DNA of 13,482 bases from Methylobacterium sp. (GTDB taxonomy: Bacteria > Pseudomonadota > Alphaproteobacteria > Rhizobiales > Beijerinckiaceae), in contig JADCCH010000344.1 in the NCBI GenBank assembly GCA_020252865.1, positions 1 to 13,482 of the forward strand. The letters are read 5' to 3'. Position numbers and translations under genes: made by a program. This document shows positions 1-13,482 of the stretch, piece by piece. How positions within the stretch are numbered: position 1 is the stretch's first letter; the number at the start of each line of letters is the position of its first letter. Under the pieces are notes generated by a model. The model ran no database searches. It was given only the letters and a program-made list of their open reading frames with translations, and was not told the origin of the DNA.

Positions 1-1082
1 AGGAATATGTCGCGCGGGGAACCTGGATCTTTCCCGTACGGCCGTCGATGCGGCTCATCGCCGACACCATCGAGTTCTCGGCCGAGACGACGCCGCGCTT
101 CAACCCCATCTCGATCGCGGGGGCGCACGTGCGCGATGCGGGCGCCACGGCGGTTGAGGAGATGGCCTACACATTGGCCAACGGAGCGGCCTATGTTCAG
201 GAGTTGAAGCGGTGGGGCGGCGACCTGGCGAAGTTCGCTGCCCGCCTCAGCTTCTTCTTCTACGTCCATATGGACCTCCTGGAAGAGGTCGCCAAGTTCC
301 GGGCTGGTCGGCGCATCTGGGCTACGATCATCCGCGACCAGTTCAACATCGAGTCCAAACAGGCGCAGCTCTTTCGGTTCGGCGTCGTTTGTGGCGGCTC
401 TTCGCTCACGAGCGCGCAACCCTACAACAACATCGTCCGGGTCGCGGTCGAGACGATGGCGGCGGTGATGGGCGGCGCCCAGTCGATCTTCACCTGCGCT
501 TATGACGAAGCATTCCAAATCCCGACCGAGTTTTCTGCCGAACTCGCGCTGCGGACCCAGCAGATCATCGCGCACGAGAGTGGTTTAGCGCGCAGCGTCG
601 ACCCGTTCGGCGGCATCTACGTCATGGAGGACCTTACCGACCGGACCGAAGAGGCGATCCGGGCGGTCATGCAGGAAATCGAGGATTACGGCGGCGTGGA
701 GAAGGCGATCGAGGAGGGCTGGCTCCAAGCCAGGCTTGCCCATCGCGCCTATGAGCGCAAGCGCAAGGTCGATACCGGGGAGACGGTCATCGTTGGGCGG
801 AACCTCTTCCGCAACGAGGCTCGCGACGACGATTTTGGCGAGGTTTTCAGGCTCGACCCGGACGGTGCGCGCCGCGTCACAGAGAAGTACGAGCGCATCC
901 TGGACACGCGATCCAATCCGAGCGTCCGCACGTCGCTTGCGGCGCTTCGCCGAGCGGCCGCCGGCGAAGCCAACGTGCTGCCTTACCTTGTCGACTGCTG
1001 CAACACCTACGCGACCGTGGGCGAAATGGTGGCTGAGCTTAAGGCCGTGTGGGGCGAGTTCAGGGAGCCCATCACGCTATGA
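1..1082 (+). CDS. B12-dependent acyl-CoA mutase, large (catalytic) subunit, 5'-partial
   Basis: The first full codon in this frame is at nt 3 and the frame is open to TGA at 1080-1082, giving 359 residues. Alignment by eye to the 2-hydroxyisobutyryl-CoA mutase large subunit suggests about 200 N-terminal residues lie outside the window. Family landmarks are EYVARGTWIFP at the window start, PSMRLIAD, FNPISIAG, RLSFFF, EEVAKFRAGRR, QPYNNIVRV, RTQQIIAHESG and VDPFGG. There is no fused B12 domain; the next gene supplies it, as in IcmA/IcmB and HcmA/HcmB. The Arg at nt 15-17 aligns with Arg207 of Propionibacterium methylmalonyl-CoA mutase, which holds the free carboxylate; isobutyryl- and hydroxyisobutyryl-CoA mutases have Gln there. 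This argues for a dicarboxylic acyl-CoA substrate. The conserved QSLHTN motif, with His244, reads QSIFTC, and the usual RFHTQT stretch reads RFGVVC. Family membership is secure; the substrate is unknown. Confidence 0.92.
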   Translation, partial: EYVARGTWIFPVRPSMRLIADTIEFSAETTPRFNPISIAGAHVRDAGATAVEEMAYTLANGAAYVQELKRWGGDLAKFAARLSFFFYVHMDLLEEVAKFRAGRRIWATIIRDQFNIESKQAQLFRFGVVCGGSSLTSAQPYNNIVRVAVETMAAVMGGAQSIFTCAYDEAFQIPTEFSAELALRTQQIIAHESGLARSVDPFGGIYVMEDLTDRTEEAIRAVMQEIEDYGGVEKAIEEGWLQARLAHRAYERKRKVDTGETVIVGRNLFRNEARDDDFGEVFRLDPDGARRVTEKYERILDTRSNPSVRTSLAALRRAAAGEANVLPYLVDCCNTYATVGEMVAELKAVWGEFREPITL

Positions 1083-1504
1083 CTGGAGAGACATCACCTT
1101 TGAAGGGGAAACGAATCCTCATTGCGAAGCCCGGTCTTGATGGCCATGACATCGGTGCCAAGGTTGTTGCGCTGGCGCTGCGCGATGCCGGTGCTGAGGT
1201 CATCTACACCGGCCTGCGCAAGGCGCCGGACTACATCGCGCGCGTGGCCGTGGAGGAGGATGTGGATGCGATCGGGCTGTCAATCCTTTCCGGCAGTCAT
1301 CGCGAGCTTGTCACCGAAATACTCAGTCACCTCGCGGCCCTCGAGGCCTCCGATATCCCCGTCTTCCTGGGAGGGACGATCTCGCGCGAGGACCATGACG
1401 ACCTGCGACGCGCGGGCGTGCGCGACATCTTCACGAGCGACATGAACCTCACCGACGTCGTGGTCCGCTTCGCGGCGCAGTTGGCTGCCGAAAGGCGCGA
1501 CTGA
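1079..1504 (+). CDS. Cobalamin-binding small subunit of the acyl-CoA mutase
   Basis: This 141-residue protein is a stand-alone B12-binding domain of the methylmalonyl-CoA mutase C-terminal type. The signature DGHDIGAK (residues 21-28) has the D-x-H-x-x-G pattern in which His23 would be the lower axial ligand of cobalt. The later S-x-L (GLSILSGSH) and GG (FLGGTIS) elements of the Rossmann-like B12 fold are also present. I chose the ATG at 1079 because it overlaps the preceding stop codon as ATGA, a usual sign of translational coupling between two subunits of one enzyme, and because the protein then begins about ten residues before the first strand, KRILIAK. An in-frame ATG at 1049 would extend it into the large-subunit gene and is less likely. 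It should pair with the adjacent large subunit. Confidence 0.93.
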   Translation: MTGETSPLKGKRILIAKPGLDGHDIGAKVVALALRDAGAEVIYTGLRKAPDYIARVAVEEDVDAIGLSILSGSHRELVTEILSHLAALEASDIPVFLGGTISREDHDDLRRAGVRDIFTSDMNLTDVVVRFAAQLAAERRD

Positions 1505-2649
1505 TGCGAGGTCCGCTTGCCGGTATCAGGATCCTCGAATTGGGCCATATGCTGGCCGGCCCCTATTGCGGCCTGGTCCTCGCCGACCTGGGCGCCGAGG
1601 TCATCAAAGTGGAGACAGCCGACGGCGACATCGCGCGACGGATTGGCCCCAACATGGTCGGCGAGCAAAATGTGTATTTCGCAAGCCTCAACCGCAACAA
1701 GAAGAGCGTTTGCCTCGATGTCTCGCAGCAGGATGACAGAAAGAAGTTCAATGCGCTCGTTGCATCCTCGCACGCGCTGATCACCAATCTGCGTCCGTCT
1801 GCGATCCGCAAACTCGGATTGACTTATGACAACCTGCGCCACATCAATCCGCGCATCGTCTGCGTTGCTCTCACCGGTTACGGCCTCGACAGCCCCAAGG
1901 CCGAGTATCCGGCCTATGATTACGTGATCCAGGCGCTGACCGGCGTCATGGCGCTGACCGGCGATCCCGACAGCCCGCCGACAAAGACGGGCTACTCGGC
2001 CGTCGACAACTCCGCCGGCCTTGGCGCGGCCGTCGGGCTTCTGGCCAAGATCGTCGAAGGTCGGGGTGGGCAGGTTGACCTTGCCATGTACGACATAATG
2101 CTGTCGCAGATGAACTACTTGGCCGCAGCCTGGCTAAACGCTCAGGATCCGCCGATGCGTTATGCCGGATCAGCCCATCCCTACATCGTACCGGCCCAGC
2201 TCTTTCGGACGAGTGACCATTTCCTGTGCATTTTCGTCACCCATGACGACTTCTGGCGCAGACTGGCCGAGGAGGTCGGGCATCCGGAATGGGTAAGCGA
2301 TCGGGCTTTCGCCACGATGTCAGCGCGTCGCGAAAACCGCGAAGCGGTTGTTGGCGCGCTGCAAGAGGTTCTGCTGACGGACACCACCGAGCGCTGGCTC
2401 AAGCGCCTGCAGCCGACCGGTATCGTGGTCTCGGGCGTGGAGACATTGGCGACAGCCCTCGCCGACGAACAGATTGCGGCGCGCCGGATGACGATCTCCA
2501 TCGAGTCGGAAAGTGGAGTGATCAGGACGTTGGGCAACCCCATCAAGTTCGGACCCGTCGACATTGAGCCGACGCCGCCACCGCGACTTGGCGAGCATAC
2601 CGACATGCTGCTCTCCCGCAGCCCATCCGGCGGTCCGGATGAGCACTGA
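1504..2649 (+). CDS. Class III (CaiB/BaiF family) CoA-transferase
   Basis: The 381-residue product is a normal-length class III CoA-transferase, which moves CoA between carboxylic acids through an aspartyl-CoA thioester. The start reads GPLAGIRILELGHMLAGPYC, followed by LADLGAEVIKVE, the N-terminal family signature. NRNKKSVCLD and NLRPSAIRKLGL fit the CoA-binding half. Asp168 in GYSAVDNSAG is the probable catalytic residue. The ATG at 1504 overlaps the previous TGA by one base (TGATG), so it is translated with the mutase subunits. In this setting it most likely activates the pathway acid, with succinyl-CoA or a later pathway thioester as donor. Substrate cannot be read from sequence, because this family spans formate, carnitine, benzylsuccinate and others. 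Confidence 0.92.
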   Translation: MRGPLAGIRILELGHMLAGPYCGLVLADLGAEVIKVETADGDIARRIGPNMVGEQNVYFASLNRNKKSVCLDVSQQDDRKKFNALVASSHALITNLRPSAIRKLGLTYDNLRHINPRIVCVALTGYGLDSPKAEYPAYDYVIQALTGVMALTGDPDSPPTKTGYSAVDNSAGLGAAVGLLAKIVEGRGGQVDLAMYDIMLSQMNYLAAAWLNAQDPPMRYAGSAHPYIVPAQLFRTSDHFLCIFVTHDDFWRRLAEEVGHPEWVSDRAFATMSARRENREAVVGALQEVLLTDTTERWLKRLQPTGIVVSGVETLATALADEQIAARRMTISIESESGVIRTLGNPIKFGPVDIEPTPPPRLGEHTDMLLSRSPSGGPDEH

Positions 2650-3568
2650 ACTCGACCGTAGAGCCCTGGGGCGGGCGCTCACGAAGGCCGCCAATGCGAG
2701 TGTTGCGGATGTCCTTTCCAGTGGCCTGTCAGTTGGATCGTCGCCCATGCACCGCATCGCAATCACAGGCGCGCCGGGCGTCGGCAAGAGCTCGCTGACG
2801 GGCCTGCTCGCGAAGGAGCGTCTTGAGGCTCGACCCAAGGCCCGCATCGGCATCCTCGCCATCGATCCATCCAGCCGCTATTCCGGCGGCGCGGTCTTGG
2901 GAGATCGCATCCGCATCGACGCGCTGGCGTCGGACCCGCGGCTGTTCATCCGCTCTCTCGCGAGCCGCACCGGTTTGGAAGGCCTGGCCGACAACATCAG
3001 CCTCGTCTTTGCAACGTTGGAGCGCTTCGATTTCGACGAGGCCATCATCGAGACCGTGGGAGCGGGCCAGACCGACTGCGCCGTGCGAGAGCTCGCCGAT
3101 ACCGTGGTGCTCGTCACGAACCCTGAATCAGGCGACACGATCCAGGCCATGAAGGCCGGGATCATGGAGACGACCGACATCTATGTGATCAACAAAGCGG
3201 ATCTCCCCGGCGCCGCTCAGGCTGCGTCCTTCCTGCGATCGGGGCTGGAGGGGCGCATGCGCGGCAGCTGGGTACCGCCGATCATCGAGACCTCACAATC
3301 GGACAGAGCCTCGGCGGAGCGCCTCTCGCAGGCGATCGATGCCCATCAGGGATGGCTCGCCCAAGCAGCGGACCCGGACGCCACCGGACGCAAACGCGCC
3401 GCCCAGGTTCTGCAAGCACTGGTGCAGCGCCGCGTAAGCCAGATCCTCGCCGATACGGATGATCAGCCCTTCGCGACGCTGAGGCGTCTTGGCGAGGCTT
3501 TTTCCGAGATGTCGCGCGCTGCACAGAAGTTCAGATCGAACGAAACCGAGCCAGCAAATGACGCTTAG
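2639..3568 (+). CDS. meaB: MeaB/ArgK-type GTPase, mutase chaperone
   Basis: This 309-residue G3E-family GTPase belongs to the MeaB/ArgK group, which gates cofactor loading and repairs or protects B12 acyl-CoA mutases. Visible motifs are the P-loop GAPGVGKSS (residues 44-52), the MeaB signature AIDPSSRYSGGAVLGDRIR, ETVGAGQTD (usually ETVGVGQSE in the family) and the guanine-specifying NKAD (185-188). I took the ATG at 2639, which overlaps the CoA-transferase end by 11 nt; the open frame extends upstream to 2564 but that part lies wholly inside the previous gene. MeaB genes are typically adjacent to the mutase they serve, so this is a dedicated chaperone for the divergent mutase encoded upstream, and supports that mutase being a working B12 enzyme. 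Confidence 0.93.
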   Translation: MSTELDRRALGRALTKAANASVADVLSSGLSVGSSPMHRIAITGAPGVGKSSLTGLLAKERLEARPKARIGILAIDPSSRYSGGAVLGDRIRIDALASDPRLFIRSLASRTGLEGLADNISLVFATLERFDFDEAIIETVGAGQTDCAVRELADTVVLVTNPESGDTIQAMKAGIMETTDIYVINKADLPGAAQAASFLRSGLEGRMRGSWVPPIIETSQSDRASAERLSQAIDAHQGWLAQAADPDATGRKRAAQVLQALVQRRVSQILADTDDQPFATLRRLGEAFSEMSRAAQKFRSNETEPANDA

Positions 3569-4679
3569 CTTTCCCCAACCGTCTTCGATTCCAAGCGAGG
3601 CCGCGCTGCGCCGCGAAGTGCGCGCCTTCCTGGCGGACCATGCTGCGGCCTGGTCATCACGCGACCGTGCCCGCTCATGGATCGGCTTCGACCGTGATTT
3701 TTCCCGCGCCGTGGGCGCGCGGGGTTGGATCGGAATGACGCTTCCAAGGCCCTATGGCCACGGTCGCAGCCACGTCGAGCGCTACATCGTGGTCGAGGAG
3801 ATGCTCGCCGCCGGCGCTCCCGTCGGAGCCCATTGGATAGCCGATCGACAAAGCGCGCCGCTCATCGTCAAGCGCGGAACCGAGCGGCAGAAGCAGCTCC
3901 TTGTTCCCGGGATTGTTCGCGGCGAGACCTGCTTCTGCATCGGCATGAGCGAGCCGGCTTCCGGCTCCGATCTCGCATCGATCACCTCGCGAGCCACTCG
4001 GGTCGATGGCGGCTGGCGGCTCGATGGTCGCAAGGTCTGGACGACAGGCGCGCACCACGCGGACTTCATGATCGCGCTTTTCCGCACTGGGCAAGGCGGG
4101 TCAGCCGATCGTCAGGAGGGTCTCACACAGTTTCTCGTCGACATGCGTTCTTCGGGGCTCGAGATCCGTGGAATCCGGGATCTCACCGGAGAGCGCCACT
4201 TCAATGAAGTTCTCTTTGATGGCGTCTTCGTCCCTGAAGACATGGTGCTGGGCGAGCCCGGCAACGGCTGGACCCAGGTGATCGCCGAGCTTGCGCATGA
4301 GCGCAGCGGCCCGGAACGGTACATGAGCGCGTTTCCGCTGTTTCTGGCGGCGCTCAGACAGACAGGCGAGACCATCGACGCAAACTGCCTCGGCGAAGCG
4401 ATCGCCGACTACGTTACGCTCAGGCTGGTGTCGCTCTCGGTCGCCGGGCAAATGGACGAGGGTAAAGACATTGCGCAAGCGGCCGCGCTTGCCAAGGAGT
4501 TGGGTGCCGACCTCGAGCAGCGCACGCCAGACGTGGTCCGCCGCCTCGTTCCCGATCCGGACGAAGCGCTTTCCGAAATGATCGACTATGTGACCTGCGT
4601 AGCGCCGACTTTCTCGATCCGCGGCGGAACAAGAGAAATCATGCGCGGCCTCTCCGCGCGCGGGTTGGGATTACGCTGA
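3558..4679 (+). CDS. Acyl-CoA dehydrogenase, probable catalytic subunit
   Basis: This 373-residue flavoprotein of the acyl-CoA dehydrogenase family introduces an alpha,beta double bond into an acyl-CoA. Visible are the helical N-terminal domain with WIGMTLPRPYGHG, the flavin/substrate loop MSEPASGSDLA (130-140), VWTTGAHHADF of the beta domain, and a C-terminal GGTREIMRGLSARGLG resembling the usual GTSEIQRN end. The Glu used by MCAD, just before GT in that end motif, is Gly here. Glu248 in AHERSG lies where isovaleryl-CoA and steroid side-chain dehydrogenases (FadE/ChsE type) place the base, so it is the likely catalytic residue. The ATG at 3558 (MTLSFPQ) overlaps the meaB end by 11 nt; an upstream ATG at 3489 lies inside meaB. 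It probably pairs with the next gene product. Confidence 0.9.
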   Translation: MTLSFPQPSSIPSEAALRREVRAFLADHAAAWSSRDRARSWIGFDRDFSRAVGARGWIGMTLPRPYGHGRSHVERYIVVEEMLAAGAPVGAHWIADRQSAPLIVKRGTERQKQLLVPGIVRGETCFCIGMSEPASGSDLASITSRATRVDGGWRLDGRKVWTTGAHHADFMIALFRTGQGGSADRQEGLTQFLVDMRSSGLEIRGIRDLTGERHFNEVLFDGVFVPEDMVLGEPGNGWTQVIAELAHERSGPERYMSAFPLFLAALRQTGETIDANCLGEAIADYVTLRLVSLSVAGQMDEGKDIAQAAALAKELGADLEQRTPDVVRRLVPDPDEALSEMIDYVTCVAPTFSIRGGTREIMRGLSARGLGLR

Positions 4680-5749
4680 TGAACATCGGACAGCAGGTAG
4701 CGGACGCCACCGACCGCCTTCTGGCGGCCCACGGATCCCCGGACGCACTCACGCGCGCGGAGGAGGGTCTTTGGCCTGCGGCGCTCTGGAACCAGCTCCT
4801 GGGGCTCGGGCTGGGCGAAGCCATGGTCGATGAGGAGCGCGGGGGACACGGCTTCGGCTGGTCCGACCTGGCCGGGACATTCATCGCGATCGGCCGGCGC
4901 GCCTGCCCCGTGCCGATCGGGGAGCACATGGTGGCCCGCGCGCTCGTCGAGCGCTCGGGCCTGAAAGCACCCGACGGAATCCTCACGCTCTCCACGCGGA
5001 TTGAACCGCGCATCCAGATCGATGCAAACCGTGTCAGCGGAGAGCTGCCCGCGGTCGTCTGGGGCGGAGAGTCCCGTCACATTGTCTTCTCATGCGATAG
5101 CGAAAGTGGAGGCGGCCGGCTTGGGGTCGTTGAGTTGTCGGCCGGCACAACCATGCCGCGTCCGAGCATTTCCCGAACACCTCATGCCGACCTGACCTAT
5201 CGAAGTGCCGAGGTGCGGCTGGCACCTGCCGAGCGTGGTGCCGTGACGCTTGCCGGTGCCCTCCTGCGTTCGCTGCAGATTACCGGGGCGATCGAGCGGG
5301 TACTCGCGGACACGGTCACCTACGCCAACACGCGCGTTCAGTTCGGTCGGCCCATTGGCCGTTTTCAAGCCATCCAGCAACTCGTTGCGGAACTCGGCAA
5401 TGAGGCAGCGGCCTCGACAGCAACGGCCATGGGGGCTGCCCGGGCCTTGGACCGAAACGAGGGTCACCTGGCTGTTGCTGTCGCGAAGGCGCGTAGTTCG
5501 GCGGCCGCCGGCCGTGTGGCAGCCATCGCCCATGAGGTCCATGCTGCGATCGGGGTCACACTGGACTTCAACTTGCACCATATGACGCGGCGGCTCTGGC
5601 AGTGGCGGAATGACTTCGGTGACGAGTTCTATTGGCGAGCGGAACTCGCCCGGGCCGCTACGGCAGAAGGGCGTGACGGACTCTGGTCTCTCATCATCGC
5701 CGCATCGGGCGGCGTGGATGCGAATGCTCCAGCCTCAGAAACAACCTAG
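4679..5749 (+). CDS. Acyl-CoA dehydrogenase-like partner subunit
   Basis: The 356-residue product has the acyl-CoA dehydrogenase fold but is strongly divergent from its neighbour. The N-terminal helical region contains LGLGEAMVDEERGGHGFGW. The middle beta domain is shortened and lacks the SEPxxGSD loop. The C-terminal domain keeps RVQFGRPIGRFQAIQ (from residue 219), the FAD-contact motif that the preceding subunit lacks, and HEVHAAIG near the end. Neither a GTSEIQR end nor the HERSG glutamate is present. This complementarity is typical of alpha2beta2 heteromers such as the steroid side-chain ChsE pairs, where one subunit carries the base. The start overlaps the previous stop as TGATG. The stop TAG (5747-5749) is also the first three bases of a palindromic repeat, so the native C-terminus may have been altered. 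It is the last gene of the operon. Confidence 0.88.
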   Translation: MNIGQQVADATDRLLAAHGSPDALTRAEEGLWPAALWNQLLGLGLGEAMVDEERGGHGFGWSDLAGTFIAIGRRACPVPIGEHMVARALVERSGLKAPDGILTLSTRIEPRIQIDANRVSGELPAVVWGGESRHIVFSCDSESGGGRLGVVELSAGTTMPRPSISRTPHADLTYRSAEVRLAPAERGAVTLAGALLRSLQITGAIERVLADTVTYANTRVQFGRPIGRFQAIQQLVAELGNEAAASTATAMGAARALDRNEGHLAVAVAKARSSAAAGRVAAIAHEVHAAIGVTLDFNLHHMTRRLWQWRNDFGDEFYWRAELARAATAEGRDGLWSLIIAASGGVDANAPASETT

Positions 5750-6352: not shown

Positions 6353-7972
6353 TTACGGGCCGCTTCGCTTCAGCCTTTCGAGGCCTTGGGCTGTCCAGCC
6401 CGGCGCGTCGGTGAGCGATGCCCATGCATCGACGTAATGCGGAAAAGCATACACATGCCCGTGGCCTTTCGGCGGCAGGGTGGCAAGCATCACGTCGAAT
6501 GTCAGCTGGAGGAACGTAACGATCGGGATCCATACGAAATCGGGTGAAACATCCGGTCCCATCGGCTGCGCCATCCATGCGGGGCGTCGCCAGAGTGAAC
6601 GCGGATCGTAGAAGACAATCGCATCGCTCGCATATTGCAGGAAGATGATGCGATACGGTCCCCAGGGCTTATGGGAATCGCCGAGATGGTTCTGTTGGGC
6701 GGTGAAGCGGATGACGGAACCATCGCGGAACCGCGGCAGCCAGGCTGGACTTCCGGCATTCCGGTTCGCGGTGATGTTGCGCCAAGTCTGGCTCGCGAAG
6801 GGCGGACCGGCCCACAAGGCACCCGCATAGGGATCGGCGATCACCTGATGGAGATCATGACTGAGATCGGAATTAAAGGCACCAAGGCTCAGGCCATGAA
6901 GGAAAAGGCGGGGGCGGCTCTTGCTCGGTAAGCGCGTCCAGTGCCCGTAAATGGCAGCAAACACGGCGCGTGCCGTCTCCACGCCATAGGCCGGCTCGGT
7001 CAGCAGCGCAATCCAGCTCGCCAGATAGGAATACTGCACTGAAACAGTCGCGACATCACCGCGTAGAACATGCTCAAGTGCGGTCTGGCTCTCTGGATCG
7101 ACCCAGCCTGTGCCGGTGGGCGTGACAATGACGAGGTTCGCCCTGTCAAATGCCCCGATGCGGATCAGCTCGGCCAGCGCCAGTTCCGCGCGCGCAACGG
7201 GATTTTCAGCTGAATTGAGCCCGACATAGACCCGCAAAGGTTCGCGCGCAGTCAAACCTGAAAGCTCGGAAATCCGCATGGCATTCGGGCCGGAGGAAAC
7301 AAATTCCCGCCCGGCACGCCCCAGGCCAAGCCAGGCAACCAGCGAACCGGGGCCTCCGGTCTTGTTGGCCTCCGTTGGCTGCGGACTCGCTTCCTCGAAG
7401 AGCGCATTGAGCTTCTGGTAGGAAGCGTCGAGCAGTCGCAGGGCGCTGGCGGCGAGCACGCCGTTCCCGATCATCCAGAAAAGTGCCGCGGTGAGTGCGA
7501 TACCGAACAAGGCCGCCTGCGGGCCCGGAACAAGGCCTCCAAGGCGGAATGTCAGGCTTTGCGCCGTAAACCGGATCAATCGCCCGATCAGAAGCAGCAC
7601 AAGGAACAAACCGAAGGCAAGCCCCGCGATGAAAAGGGAACCGCCGCCATCCACGGGCGGCATGTCCATCAGGGCTCGGAGCCGGTTCTGCCATCCAGAG
7701 GCCCACCATAATGCCAATGCGCACGCACCGGTGCAGGCAAGGATCGCCAGCCCATTGCCGAACGCACGGACCCGCCCCTCGACAACCGGCAATTCAAGCC
7801 AAAGCCAGAGGCTGCGGAGAAGAACCCCCGCCCCGTAGCCGGCAGCCAAGCAGAAGCCGCCCAGCAGCCCCTGGATGACGGGCGATCGCGGCACCAGGCT
7901 CGGAGTCAACGATGCGGCGAAGAATAGCGTGCCAATCATCAGGCCTGCACCTGAAAACGACGGCAGCATCAT
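6353..7972 (-). CDS. Membrane-anchored alpha/beta-hydrolase (Abhydrolase_9-like)
   Basis: This is a 539-residue protein from the ATG at 7972; a TTG at 8002 would add ten residues, and neither start has a clear ribosome site. The N-terminal third is hydrophobic with about five predicted membrane helices (GTLFFAASLTPSL, GGFCLAAGYGAGVLL, AILACTGACALALWW, FIAGLAFGLFLVLLL, ALFGIALTAALFWMIG). A soluble hydrolase domain follows FVSSGPNAMRISELSG. LHGLSLGAF carries the nucleophile-elbow pattern G-x-S-x-G as GLSLG (Ser362 by this start), and DAIVFYDP and GHGHVY near the end probably supply the acid and His. This architecture matches the Pfam alpha/beta-hydrolase family with a dedicated N-terminal membrane domain. 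Its substrate is unknown. It is transcribed away from the DUF4344-like gene. Confidence 0.85.
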   Translation of the reverse strand: MMLPSFSGAGLMIGTLFFAASLTPSLVPRSPVIQGLLGGFCLAAGYGAGVLLRSLWLWLELPVVEGRVRAFGNGLAILACTGACALALWWASGWQNRLRALMDMPPVDGGGSLFIAGLAFGLFLVLLLIGRLIRFTAQSLTFRLGGLVPGPQAALFGIALTAALFWMIGNGVLAASALRLLDASYQKLNALFEEASPQPTEANKTGGPGSLVAWLGLGRAGREFVSSGPNAMRISELSGLTAREPLRVYVGLNSAENPVARAELALAELIRIGAFDRANLVIVTPTGTGWVDPESQTALEHVLRGDVATVSVQYSYLASWIALLTEPAYGVETARAVFAAIYGHWTRLPSKSRPRLFLHGLSLGAFNSDLSHDLHQVIADPYAGALWAGPPFASQTWRNITANRNAGSPAWLPRFRDGSVIRFTAQQNHLGDSHKPWGPYRIIFLQYASDAIVFYDPRSLWRRPAWMAQPMGPDVSPDFVWIPIVTFLQLTFDVMLATLPPKGHGHVYAFPHYVDAWASLTDAPGWTAQGLERLKRSGP

Positions 7973-8469
7973 GACGCGGTGGGTATCAGTCTTCAGCGAC
8001 AAATACTTGACCCCGATTTCCCATTGACATCCCAGCCTGGCGCGACCCCATGTCTGAACTCAGCAAGCTCCCACATGATCCCCCTAACTCTCGTTGGCGG
8101 GCCTCGTTCGGTGCCCGGTTGGCAGCGGGCTGCCCATAGCGGATTGGGAAGCACTATCTTGCGGCGCGCGCTTCGCCACCCGGCGCCGCAGGCGGGAATG
8201 CTGCAAGGGGCAGACCATGAACAACACTTCGGGATTGCCCCAGGACAGCACCTAACCGAAGGATGCCGTCCGATCAAGGTATCGGTAGGCGCGGCAGTGT
8301 CAATTCGCTCCTCGGTCGACACGGGAAAAGGGGGAACTTCGAATTTCCCGGAAGGGACGATCAGGCAGCGACCGGCTTCTCCTTTGGATACGAACCCTTT
8401 TGGCAGTTTTGCCTTGATGATTATCGTCGCTCGTCTACCTTTGATCCCCGAAGCAGGAGGGAGCGCAAC
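7973..8469. other. Divergent intergenic region, no convincing gene
   Basis: About 500 bp between the two divergent starts. Both strands have open frames running through it, but they are extensions or antisense of neighbouring genes with no family resemblance. Promoters for both genes should lie here, yet no clear -35/-10 pair stands out. On the minus strand, 8005-8050 shows spaced GGGGTC, TGTCAATGGGAAATC and GGGGTCAAG elements that resemble the ends of IS21-type insertion sequences; this is only a weak likeness. TTCCCGGAA near 8345-8353 is a short palindrome. Confidence 0.45.
8455..8460 (+). promoter_or_regulatory. Strong Shine-Dalgarno AGGAGG deciding the downstream start
   Basis: AGGAGG sits nine bases before the ATG at 8470. 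No other upstream in-frame start has such a site, so it fixes the start of the DUF4344-like gene and leaves the signal peptide at the true N-terminus. Confidence 0.8.
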
Positions 8470-9348
8470 ATGACCGGCATGGGCAGGCTCGCGCGCATCA
8501 TGGTACTGCTGGCTGGCATCTCTTTTTTCGCAGGCGTCTCTCTGGCGCAAGCGTCGGAAGCCAATCAGATCCTGATCGATTACCGCGCGCCGTCCAACCC
8601 TGCGCATCAGGCCCTTCACGAGAGGCTGAAGCAGAAGGGTGCCCTCGAACGAATCCAGATGCTCCTGTCCCCTTTTCGCCTGCCGCGGCCGCTGACCATC
8701 CGCACGGCGGGTTGTGATGGCGAGATCAATGCCTGGTTCGAACTGGATTCCGTCACGGTCTGTTATGAATACATCGAATATGTGTTCGAAAGTGCCGCAA
8801 GCTGGAAGCGCCCGGAATGGGTGAGTGAGCACCACGCGATCATGGGCGCCATGATTGATGTGTTCCTGCACGAGGCCGGACATGCCCTGTTCGATTATCT
8901 CGACATCCCCATCTTTGGCCGGGAAGAGGATGCGGCCGATCAGTTCGCAGCCTATATGCTGCTGAGCCTTGGTCGGCAGGATACGCCCCAACTCATCGCA
9001 GGCATCATCTACATCTACCTGAACGAAGCGGGCGTCCGCGATTTCTCGGTCCTCCAGCGCAAGAGGCTTCGCATCGTCGATCACAAGCAGCACGCCGATG
9101 TGCACAGTCTGCCATTGCAGCGGATGTACAACACGCTCTGCCTCGCCTATGGCGCAAATCCTGCTCTGTTCAAGGAAGCCGTTGAACGCGGCGCCTTGCC
9201 CGCCGATCGAGCGGAAAGCTGTGCCGAAGAATTCCAGCAGGTGGAAAAGGCCTTTCGCAAGCTCATCCAGCCCCACATCGATCTCGATGTCTTGAGCAAT
9301 GTGCTTTCGAGCGACACGCTTTCATTGGGGCGGAAGGTAGAACCGTAA
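8470..9348 (+). CDS. Secreted DUF4344-type putative zinc metallopeptidase
   Basis: The 292-residue product starts with a classic signal peptide (basic MTGMGRLAR, hydrophobic IMVLLAGISFFAGVSLA, cleavage near AQA-SEA), so it is exported. HEAGH at residues 134-138, with the flanking FLHEAGHALFDYLDIP, is a zinc HEXXH site. GREEDAADQFAAYMLL (151-166) follows closely and supplies the third acidic ligand, a layout typical of DUF4344 putative metallopeptidases. Cys in RTAGCDGEINAW, VTVCYEY, NTLCLAYG and ESCAEEF could form disulfides in the periplasm. The frame is open upstream to 8263, but the strong ribosome site and the signal peptide set the start at 8470. It is monocistronic and divergent from the membrane hydrolase gene; a functional link between them is not shown. 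Substrate is unknown. Confidence 0.85.
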   Translation: MTGMGRLARIMVLLAGISFFAGVSLAQASEANQILIDYRAPSNPAHQALHERLKQKGALERIQMLLSPFRLPRPLTIRTAGCDGEINAWFELDSVTVCYEYIEYVFESAASWKRPEWVSEHHAIMGAMIDVFLHEAGHALFDYLDIPIFGREEDAADQFAAYMLLSLGRQDTPQLIAGIIYIYLNEAGVRDFSVLQRKRLRIVDHKQHADVHSLPLQRMYNTLCLAYGANPALFKEAVERGALPADRAESCAEEFQQVEKAFRKLIQPHIDLDVLSNVLSSDTLSLGRKVEP

Positions 9349-9735: not shown

Positions 9736-10737
9736 TCAGCCGGCGGGCAGCAGCACGATCTTGGCGGCGATCGCCCTGCCCGCGTCGATGTCGGCGAAGG
9801 CGGCGGCGCCCTCGCGCAGGGGCCGCATCTCGATCCAGCCCAACCCCCCGAGGCGGCCGGCAGCCAGCGCGTCCACGCAATGGATGAAGTCCTGCGGCGT
9901 GTAGCAATAGGAGCCGGTGAGGGTGATCTCCTGAAGGGTGATCTTGCGGATGTCGAGGCCCTCATGCCCCGGCAGGAGCCCGAGATGCACGATGACACCG
10001 CCGGGCCGGACCATGGCACAGGCCGCCGCGCGCGTCGCGCCCGCTCCGACCGCATCGATCACGAGGTCGATGGAATTGTCGGCGGGCGAGAACCCGTCGC
10101 CCGGCGCATAGGTGGCGAAGCCCTCGGTCCGCGTGATCGCCGCCTTGCGCAGGGGATTGGCCTCGCAGATCAGGATCTCGCCCGCGCCGAACAGCCGCGC
10201 CACGATGGCCGCCGCGAGCCCGATGGCACCCCCGCCGAGGATCACGACGCGGGCCGCGGCGAGCGGCAGATGAAGCTTCTGCATGCCCAGCCGGACCGCA
10301 TGCCAGGACACCGCGATGGGCTCGGCGAGGGCCGCGTGGGCGATGGGCAGGCCGTCGGGAACGGCGATGAGGTTGCCCTCCGGGATCGTGACGTACTCCG
10401 CGAAGGCGCCGGGGCGCGGCGGCATGGATATGATCTGGCGCGTCGGCGAGAGGTGCCAGCGTCCCTCCCGCGCATCGGGGCAGGCGGGATCGACGACCAG
10501 CGGATTGATGGTGACGCGCTCGCCGTCGCGCGGGCCCCCGAGGATGCGGCCCGCGGCCTCGTGGCCAAGAACGAGCGGCGGCGGCCGGCGGCTGTCATGG
10601 CCGTGATAGGCGTGCATGTCCGAGCCGCAGATGCCGACCGCCTCTATCTTCACGAGCAGTTCGCCGGGTTTGGCGACGGGGTCGGGTTCGTCGCGGTACG
10701 CGAGCGCGTGAGGCGCGGTGTAGACGAGCGCTTTCAT
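9736..10737 (-). CDS. Zinc-type medium-chain alcohol dehydrogenase (HpsP-like)
   Basis: This 333-residue MDR-superfamily dehydrogenase has GICGSD (Cys37), GHEAAG (His59, Glu60) and AEPIAVSWHA (Glu139), which form the catalytic zinc site, and the dinucleotide motif GGGAIG (168-173) followed by Glu192 at the end of the second strand, favouring NAD over NADP. The lobe that normally holds the structural zinc (C-x2-C-x2-C-x7-C) reads Asp83, Cys86, Ala89, Ser97, so that zinc is almost certainly absent. It lies 8 nt behind the short-chain dehydrogenase gene. In DHPS clusters HpsP, together with HpsO, interconverts (S)- and (R)-dihydroxypropanesulfonate; family and gene order support this, but other polyol or sugar substrates cannot be excluded. 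It is the last gene before the IS256 remnant. Confidence 0.88.
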   Translation of the reverse strand: MKALVYTAPHALAYRDEPDPVAKPGELLVKIEAVGICGSDMHAYHGHDSRRPPPLVLGHEAAGRILGGPRDGERVTINPLVVDPACPDAREGRWHLSPTRQIISMPPRPGAFAEYVTIPEGNLIAVPDGLPIAHAALAEPIAVSWHAVRLGMQKLHLPLAAARVVILGGGAIGLAAAIVARLFGAGEILICEANPLRKAAITRTEGFATYAPGDGFSPADNSIDLVIDAVGAGATRAAACAMVRPGGVIVHLGLLPGHEGLDIRKITLQEITLTGSYCYTPQDFIHCVDALAAGRLGGLGWIEMRPLREGAAAFADIDAGRAIAAKIVLLPAG

Positions 10738-10745
10738 GCCGATGC

Positions 10746-11518
10746 CTATTTCGCCGTGAAGCCGCCATCCACCGCGAGCGTCTGGCCCGTGACGTAGGCG
10801 GAGGCCTTGGAGGCCAGGAACACCGTCGCGCCGATGAGATCGTCGAGCTCGCCGTTGCGCCCGATCGCCGTCTGCGCGGCGTTGCGCTGGACGCGCTGCG
10901 GATCGACGAAAACCGGCGCGGTCAGCGGCGTGGGAAAGAACCCGGGCGCGATGGCGTTGCAGGTGACGCCGTGGCGGGACCAGGCCTCGGCGATGGCGCG
11001 GGTGAGCTGCACGACCCCGCCCTTGGCCGCGCCGTAAGGCGCGCTGTCAGCGAAGGCGCGATAGCTCTGCAGCGAGGCGATGTTGAGGATGCGGCCGAAC
11101 CCCCGTTCCGCCATGCCCGGCGCCAGCGCCTGGGTGAGCAGGAACGGCGCGCGAAGATGTACGGCCATGTGCAGGTCGAAGTCTTCCGCGCCGACCTCCT
11201 GGAACGGCTGGCGCAGATTCATGCCCGCCGCGTTGACGAGGATGTCGACCTTGCGCTGGCGTTCGACGCAGGCCGCGCCGATCCGCGCGCCGCAGCCGGG
11301 ATCGGCGAGATCGGCCGCGATCGCCTCGGCCTCGATGCCCGCGCCCGCAAGGTCCCGCGCCGCGTGCTCCAACGCGTCGGCCCGGCGCGCGACAAGGATC
11401 AATCTGGAGCCGGCCAGTCCGAGCGCACGCGCCATCGCCAGACCGATGCCGCTGTTGCCGCCGGTCACGAGCGCCGTGCGCCCCGTAAGGTCGAACAGAT
11501 CGGAGAGACGAAAGGTCA

Positions 11519-11519
<1 letters not shown>
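10746..11519 (-). CDS. Short-chain dehydrogenase/reductase (HpsO-like)
   Basis: This 257-residue classical SDR has the cofactor loop TGGNSGIG (19-26), NAAG (96-99), Ser149 in NIAS, and Tyr162-x3-Lys166 (PYGAAKGG); the 13-residue Ser-Tyr spacing is standard. Arg45 and Arg46 after the second strand (LVARR) hint at NADP(H) but do not prove it. The C-terminal end YVTGQTLAVDGGF is typical. It resembles the gluconate-5-dehydrogenase-like subgroup acting on secondary alcohols. Its ATG overlaps the stop of the HisD-like gene by one base (TGATG), so the two are translationally coupled. By analogy with hpsN-hpsO-hpsP it would oxidise the C2 hydroxyl of one DHPS enantiomer, with the next enzyme reducing it to the other. 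Confidence 0.9.

Positions 11520-13482
<1,963 letters not shown>

Follow-up and report, generated by a model that had tools for sequence, protein, structure and literature searches.

Carbon-skeleton mutases are one of the few cellular routes for quaternary or branched carbons. The catalytic residues of the methylmalonyl-CoA mutase (MCM) structure 1REQ are Tyr89, His244, Lys604, Asp608 and His610 (PMC3205055). Two-subunit alkylmalonyl/alkylsuccinyl-CoA mutases have already been proposed, with MatB/MatQ and ActD put forward in PMC5719088 as hexylmalonyl-/pentylsuccinyl-CoA mutases of matlystatin and actinonin biosynthesis. Among open-licence PMC full texts on the operon, acyl-CoA mutases, dimethylmalonate/dimethylsuccinate and active-site residues, a scope outside which most of the subscription literature lies, we found no paper on this subfamily, and the consulted parts of PMC10481361, PMC6759758 and PMC10356863 contained no active-site residue list.

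The stretch of DNA analyzed here (the window; 13,482 nucleotides, G000:C273:1-13482) carries a mutase gene, truncated by the contig start, of a bacterial branch that appears not to have been studied and whose active site is rebuilt. The features of the window are as follows, with residues in MCM numbering.

3..1082, forward: the C-terminal two thirds of the mutase large subunit; 359 codons are present out of about 542, the start being off the contig
15..17, forward: codon of Arg207, the carboxylate-binding Arg, retained by alignment to solved mutases
123..125, forward: Ala in place of Tyr243, fixed among the family rows
126..128, forward: codon of His244, retained (numbering as in PMC3205055)
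261..269, forward: Y-V-H in place of the Gly, Ile and Gly that Propionibacterium freudenreichii MCM has at 289-291, giving a new Tyr289 and His291
375..392, forward: RFGVVC, corresponding to R-T-H-S-Q-T of MCM at 326-331 (H328G, Q330V, T331C)
480..497, forward: QSIFTC, corresponding to QSLHTN of MCM at 361-366 (H364F, N366C)
507..509, forward: codon of Glu370, retained
1079..1504, forward: mutase small (B12-binding) subunit, ATG at 1079 (Pfam B12-binding, PF02310, E 1.4e-21)
1504..2649, forward: CaiB-type (class III) CoA transferase
2639..3568, forward: MeaB-type GTPase chaperone with an intact P-loop, GAPGVGKS
3558..4679, forward: acyl-CoA dehydrogenase half, matching the N-terminal and middle domain models but not the C-terminal one
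4679..5749, forward: acyl-CoA dehydrogenase half, C-terminal domain and a weak N-terminal match, IpdE2-like below the cut-off

Between the mutase operon and a dehydrogenase cluster, the list of open reading frames gives two long open frames, at 6353-8002 (reverse) and 8263-9348 (forward). The cluster itself is a single gene run on the reverse strand (9736-13481) that encodes a Zn-type alcohol dehydrogenase, an SDR, a histidinol-dehydrogenase-like protein and a C-terminal protein fragment; the best NCBIfam matches in the run are hisD, SDR and threonine-dehydrogenase-like, and the fragment, without an NCBIfam match, may from its sequence be a substrate-binding protein. We take this run to resemble dihydroxypropanesulfonate (HpsNOP-type) catabolism.

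The frame at 3..1082 is open and matches Pfam MM_CoA_mutase (PF01642) with an E-value of 3.9e-120, and its full-length relative P0001 (542 aa) is 98% identical to the window fragment. Together with the B12-binding domain match, this bears out an earlier interpretation of the same DNA from its letters (the sequence-only reading), which had called the gene a B12 mutase, had aligned the Arg codon at nt 15-17 with Arg207, as we also find, and had described a two-subunit enzyme with its own MeaB, here the genes at 1079..1504 and 2639..3568. The nearest solved relatives of the CoA transferase by sequence are CaiB/BaiF (4ed9), YfdE (4hl6), a formyl-CoA transferase (10uh) and succinate-hydroxymethylglutarate CoA-transferase (9br6).

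Residues were numbered on 1REQ chain A (PDB number equal to chain index + 1), with which 12 of 12 residue identities expected for MCM agree, and HMMER alignments of the window to solved mutases span the region. Between positions 207 and 370, the MAFFT alignment of the window with P. freudenreichii MCM contains a single one-column gap. His244 is the His of SISGYHMQEAGA (SISGYH in P. freudenreichii MCM), 37 residues past Arg207, and the window counterpart SIAGAHVRDAGA (SIAGAH) keeps it at nt 126-128, whereas QSLHTN has its His at residue 364 and RTHSQT at residue 328. The sequence-only reading was correct in reading RFGVVC at nt 375-392 and QSIFTC, with its Phe at nt 489-491. Its title claim, that the conserved active-site His is lost with this Phe replacing His244, is wrong because the QSLHTN His is residue 364: the Phe occupies position 364, and His244 is present in the window and in all 206 family rows defined below. 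The argument that a radical shield was lost while Arg207 was kept falls as well. A mutase with Arg207 and without His244, whose sole support is the mis-numbered motif, is refuted by the alignment and by the residue list published for 1REQ (PMC3205055), and can be set aside with near certainty. The attached proposal of a mutase of unknown specificity survives in outcome, in that a substituted succinyl- or malonyl-CoA is still the best guess, although the loss of His244 no longer argues for it.

At the positions compared in the alignment, to which these lists are confined, the window departs from P. freudenreichii MCM by S241A, Y243A, W288F, G289Y, I290V, G291H, T327F, H328G, S329V, Q330V, T331C, W334S, L363I, H364F, N366C, S367A and L368Y, and keeps R207, H244, R283, S285, F287, M292, R326, Q361, S362, T365, D369 and E370. 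The full-length relatives show the further changes H122Q, R123C and A139V. The signature R207 A243 H244 Y289 H291 G328 V329 V330 F364 E370 (RAHYHGVVFE) occurs in 206/206 family rows and in 0/15 other mutases. Of these rows, 120 are database proteins (the best 120 listed of 7999 matches, from 8000 scored candidates) and 84 come from loci; the other two are the window and L001, its own copy. Distinct rows number 204, and in 11 cases a locus row duplicates one of the database proteins across the core that was compared. Since all are close matches, with the lowest locus 67.5% identical to P0001, fixation within them is partly expected. Judged from these alignments, the fixed signature shows one coherent subfamily rather than independent trials, and because it is shared by every row the motif changes are not sequencing errors. 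With the window excluded (120 database and 84 locus rows), H244, A243, G328, V330 and F364 are each found in 204/204 rows, position 366 is Cys in 193/204 and Ala in 11/204, Y89 is present in all 201 rows having that column and Q197 in 203/203. For the window, the Tyr89 column lies off the contig; it is seen in P0001 and the full-length relatives. Glu370 contacts the adenosyl ribose. We infer that the pocket has been opened by Ala243 and by the disappearance of His328, Gln330 and Asn366, and reshaped by Tyr289, His291 and Phe364.

The catalytic machinery around this pocket is preserved. The KPGLDGHD motif of the small subunit gives Lys604, Asp608 and His610, SGSH and GGT motifs are also present, and all three are conserved in the 82 aligned family small subunits; the MeaB P-loop is kept across 75 aligned copies, and a cobalamin adenosyltransferase gene lies near 8 of the 85 family loci. 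The published 1REQ catalytic set is thus complete, with His244 in the window, Lys604, Asp608 and His610 in the small subunit and Tyr89 in the relatives. The disappearance of several motif residues of the MCM, IcmF and HCM rows could suggest that the protein has decayed, or moonlights, and no longer catalyzes, but with all five published residues kept (Tyr89 in relatives), open frames and fixed new residues, such decay is highly improbable. The window mutase is very probably an active dicarboxylic acyl-CoA mutase of a new subfamily.

In a careful tree of 51 rows, the family (22 rows) formed a 100/100 clade apart from the other mutases, among which MCM (11 rows), ethylmalonyl-CoA mutase (ECM; 5 rows), HCM with Xaut_5021, three PCM-like rows and IcmF were further 100/100 clades; the deep order of this tree is weak. 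A second careful tree, to which Xaut_5043 and E. coli ScpA were added, had 42 rows, 11 of them from the family. It again recovered the family at 100/100 and placed Xaut_5043 with the PCM-like rows (100/100); ECM grouped with MCM at 96/90, and L125/L126 with the family at 98/90. This last pairing had an SH-aLRT of 92 in a quick tree and was not recovered in the 51-row tree. If the 42-row order holds, ECM and the family lost their motif residues separately. Both careful trees omitted L092_p_3082 (probably an MCM small subunit) and the long branches L091, L133 and L137. The tree placement that the sequence-only reading had proposed as a check thus puts the family inside none of the characterized clades included in the trees. 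We take Xaut_5043 to be a PCM and Xaut_5021 an HCM. Identity to P0001 is 41-44% for MCM, 43% for HCM, 35-37% for ECM and 31% for IcmF, and the nearest relative outside the family, among those compared, is an Ilyobacter two-subunit mutase from an operon with an epimerase and a sodium pump (48%). None of the NCBIfam models among the matches is named for this subfamily or for ECM.

Mutases next to crotonyl-CoA carboxylase/reductase (ccr) are ECMs by context. Of the six ECM-type mutases whose residues were read, five are beside or near ccr, at a distance of up to 0.6 kb in G016, G313, G332 and G307 and of 4.4 kb in G301; the sixth is that of G330. All six combine G328, Q330, V331, Q364 and P366 with R207, Y243 and H244. 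The replaced motif residues to which the sequence-only reading drew attention are therefore real but not unprecedented, and by these alignments the loss of His328, His364 and Asn366 is not unique to the family.

Membership of MCM, ECM, HCM, ICM and PCM was rejected on residues and trees. The family lacks the MCM pocket (Y243, H328, Q330, H364, N366) and falls outside the MCM clade in both careful trees; it is outside the ECM clade and without G328 Q330 V331 Q364 P366; and it has Arg207 and Tyr89, where HCM, IcmF and Xaut_5043 have Gln/Asn207 and Ile/Phe/Leu89, which excludes HCM, ICM and PCM. An ordinary methylmalonyl-CoA mutase with drifted residues would agree with the retention of Arg207, His244 and, in relatives, Tyr89, and with the Ilyobacter epimerase-operon mutase as nearest outsider among those compared. 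Yet MCM rows, a separate 100/100 clade, keep all five pocket residues, from which the family differs in 206/206 rows at 243, 328, 330 and 364, and the window's own genome already has a canonical MCM (L002), so that we regard mere drift as improbable. A variant ECM serving the ethylmalonyl-CoA pathway is similarly improbable: R207, Y89, H244, Q122 and V139 are common to the ECM rows and the family, and H328, H364 and N366 are absent from both, but ECM is its own 100/100 clade at 35-37% identity with another signature (G, Q, V, Q and P at 328, 330, 331, 364 and 366), and ccr is below the cut-off in the window's genome G000 (best E 2.6e-17; assembly 78% complete).

At most family loci, a conserved gene set comprises a crotonase, the two mutase subunits, a CoA transferase and MeaB. 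Across 85 loci, with each gene scored where the flank permitted, the small subunit was found at 85/85, CaiB at 74/81, MeaB at 74/77 and an IclR regulator at 51/65. The crotonase is directly upstream of the mutase at 75/80 loci by script and at 77/80 when L027 and L071, in which it touches or overlaps the mutase start, are included; no crotonase match was found at L028, L031 and L065 (3/80), and the window itself ends before the crotonase position. Among the seven CaiB-less loci (7/81), L015 has instead a butyryl/succinate CoA-transferase of the YgfH/ScpC kind, L013 and L026 share the same ORF cluster as L015, and no replacement CoA transferase was identified at L031, L045, L062 and L065. Because the replacement is of the kind found in E. 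coli scpA-argK-scpB-scpC, CoA transfer seems to be part of the module.

Rat crotonase uses the catalytic residues Glu144 and Glu164. The Glu of the GGgaELa motif is kept in at least 95% of 75 aligned family crotonases, and the second catalytic Glu of hydratases is Gln in most of them, which argues against a plain hydratase. The five best alignments to ScpB show 24-29% identity, with E-values from 9e-16 to 4e-19, and for the guessed decarboxylase role there is otherwise a sequence resemblance to ECHDC1.

Further neighbors were counted up to 11 kb from the mutase, or to the end of the locus where it stops sooner, as many of the 85 do. Transport genes include Bug (27), LivK (10), DctP (9), TAXI (8), fused TRAP (8) and MFS (15), and oxidative genes include 2OG-Fe oxygenase (17), ALDH (15) and SDR (9), besides LldD-like (9), LLM (7), TauD (6), HIBADH-like (11), citryl-CoA-lyase-like (10), PaaK-like (5), amidase (4) and SMP-30 (4) genes. 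BVMO-like genes adjoin L038 and L042, and a P450 adjoins L062. The theme is alcohol-to-acid oxidation, acid transport and CoA transfer, which points to no single substrate. Genes for a two-subunit TPP decarboxylase lie near some loci (beta 11/85, alpha 10/85); at L032, L072, L048 and others this enzyme is divergent, sulfopyruvate/phosphonopyruvate-decarboxylase-like, and accompanied beside the operon by a beta-hydroxyacid dehydrogenase. The two acyl-CoA dehydrogenases of the window recur solely at L004 (2/85 loci including the window's own).

The probable role of the enzyme is in the breakdown of a branched dicarboxylic acid. In the explanation we tentatively favor, at somewhat under an even chance for the whole, a dicarboxylic acyl-CoA mutase in an ScpABC-like module converts a substituted succinate into a substituted malonyl-CoA that is then decarboxylated. 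The dicarboxylic acid would be imported, or made through methyl oxidation (2OG-Fe oxygenase or P450, SDR, ALDH), and thioesterified by the CoA transferase; MeaB would keep the mutase loaded, Arg207 and Tyr89 would hold the free carboxylate, and the mutase would shift the thioester group between adjacent carbons, from substituted succinyl-CoA to substituted malonyl-CoA. The crotonase, as a predicted decarboxylase (a guess), would take CO2 off this product, and the branched acyl-CoA would enter beta-oxidation, in the window through the alpha/beta acyl-CoA dehydrogenase. The succinyl-to-malonyl direction and the decarboxylating crotonase, taken jointly, are a tentative proposal that we hold slightly less likely than not to be right. 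The specific example of 2,2-dimethylsuccinyl-CoA to isopropylmalonyl-CoA to isovaleryl-CoA, which would need no further dedicated gene, is a long shot.

Mutase, MeaB, CoA transferase and a crotonase-fold gene do occur together at most loci, as this explanation expects. Against it stand the low identity of the crotonase to ScpB (just 24-29% in the best five alignments) and its absence from 3/80 loci, the use at most loci of a CoA-transferase family other than that of ScpC, with 7/81 lacking CaiB, the restriction of the acyl-CoA dehydrogenase pair to just 2/85 loci, and the TPP decarboxylase and reductase genes (10-11/85 loci), which fall outside the scheme.

Denitrifiers growing on dimethylmalonate are known, and the reaction could also start from a quaternary-carbon malonyl-CoA, such as 2,2-dimethylmalonyl-CoA, and yield methylsuccinyl-CoA, with Y243A making space for the second methyl. 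Arg207 together with the larger pocket at 243 would suit such a substrate, Xanthobacter Xaut_5043 (the presumed PCM) is also altered at 243, from Tyr to Gln, and the adjoining oxygenase, SDR and ALDH genes could take a gem-dimethyl methyl to the carboxylate. 2,2-Dimethylmalonyl-CoA has been tentatively identified in mouse tissue (PMC8473548). However, HCM acts on a quaternary carbon and yet retains Tyr243, no methylsuccinyl-CoA dehydrogenase, hydratase or lyase recurs in most loci, and the crotonase would be left without an obvious job; we consider this route unlikely. Somewhat less unlikely, though still doubtful, is a further substrate class of B12 acyl-CoA mutase, namely a proteobacterial enzyme for quaternary-carbon or bulky branched dicarboxylic acyl-CoAs (2,2-dimethylsuccinyl-CoA to isopropylmalonyl-CoA, for instance), in which radical control would have to be done differently because His328, Gln330, His364 and Asn366 became Gly, Val, Phe and Cys.

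The family occurs in alpha-, beta- and gammaproteobacterial records, and four plasmids, from Marinobacter, Diaphorobacter, Sulfitobacter and Paraburkholderia, carry the module, each of them non-mobilizable by PLSDB typing. In 9 of 24 genomes searched (completeness not given), the family mutase is the sole PF01642 match at E 1e-40 or better, so it seems not to need a housekeeping MCM; the window's own genome also encodes the canonical L002. Among 299 genomes sampled across the phylum, 3, the own genome included, have a match at E 1e-170 or better, and the two same-genus genomes in the sample have none at that threshold; hence the operon appears patchy and was perhaps acquired.

Several other unusual mutases were met along the way. 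L133 (8881, forward) and L137 (3985, forward) have Gly244, lack Arg207 and appear to lack His244, and the very divergent L091 (4923-6644) on a Sphingobium herbicidovorans plasmid has Gln244 and no Arg207 in a less certain alignment; the proposed loss of the His fits these three better than it fits the window. L125, L126, L132 and L135 (genomes G299 and G305) make up a second uncharacterized clade that keeps Arg207, Tyr243 and His244 and has Asn287, Ile328, Gly330, Ala364 and Cys366 (L125/L126 also G331). In Bradyrhizobium manausense (G346, the genome of L026), contig C12 carries mutase matches at 290983-292518 and 322417-323958, about 30 kb apart, both with family-like E-values and the second being the L026 site. 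The Diaphorobacter plasmid also carries a second mutase set grouping with Xaut_5043 (L085, 1852-5145), upstream of the family operon at a distance of about 10 kb.

The occurrence of a conserved module with an unassigned mutase in records of three proteobacterial classes, and also on plasmids, points to an unrecognized catabolic route. The active site of the mutase amounts to a natural experiment, in which the catalytic core is kept and residues of the MCM, IcmF and HCM rows are replaced; the family can thus be used to test which residues control the substrate and which control the radical.

Compared with known systems, the family shares with MCM (1REQ, human MMUT, E. coli ScpA) the fold family, Arg207, His244, Glu370, the B12 ligands and the MeaB partner, as well as Tyr89 and Gln197 in full-length relatives, and differs in Y243A, H328G, Q330V, H364F, N366C, G289Y and G291H in the window, in its 41-44% identity and in its separate clade. 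With ECM it has in common Arg207, His244, Q122 and V139 and the absence of H328, H364 and N366; ECM rows, in contrast, keep Tyr243 and Gln330, neighbor ccr, form a separate clade at 35-37% identity and carry the B12 domain within the same chain (L127), whereas the family has separate subunits. HCM (4R3U) likewise has a separate large subunit and is 43% identical, but combines Ile89 and Gln207, without the carboxylate Arg, with retained Y243, H328, Q330, H364 and N366. MatB/MatQ and ActD, likened here by description rather than sequence, are two-subunit mutases with proposed alkylmalonyl/alkylsuccinyl-CoA substrates and, according to PMC5719088, belong to actinomycete biosynthetic clusters with ccr and an epimerase. 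The E. coli scpA-argK-scpB-scpC operon also unites a mutase, MeaB, a crotonase-fold enzyme and a CoA transferase in one gene run, whereas in the family the crotonase is only remotely similar, the CoA transferase is mostly CaiB, the mutase is split, its active site differs, and IclR and transporter genes lie nearby.
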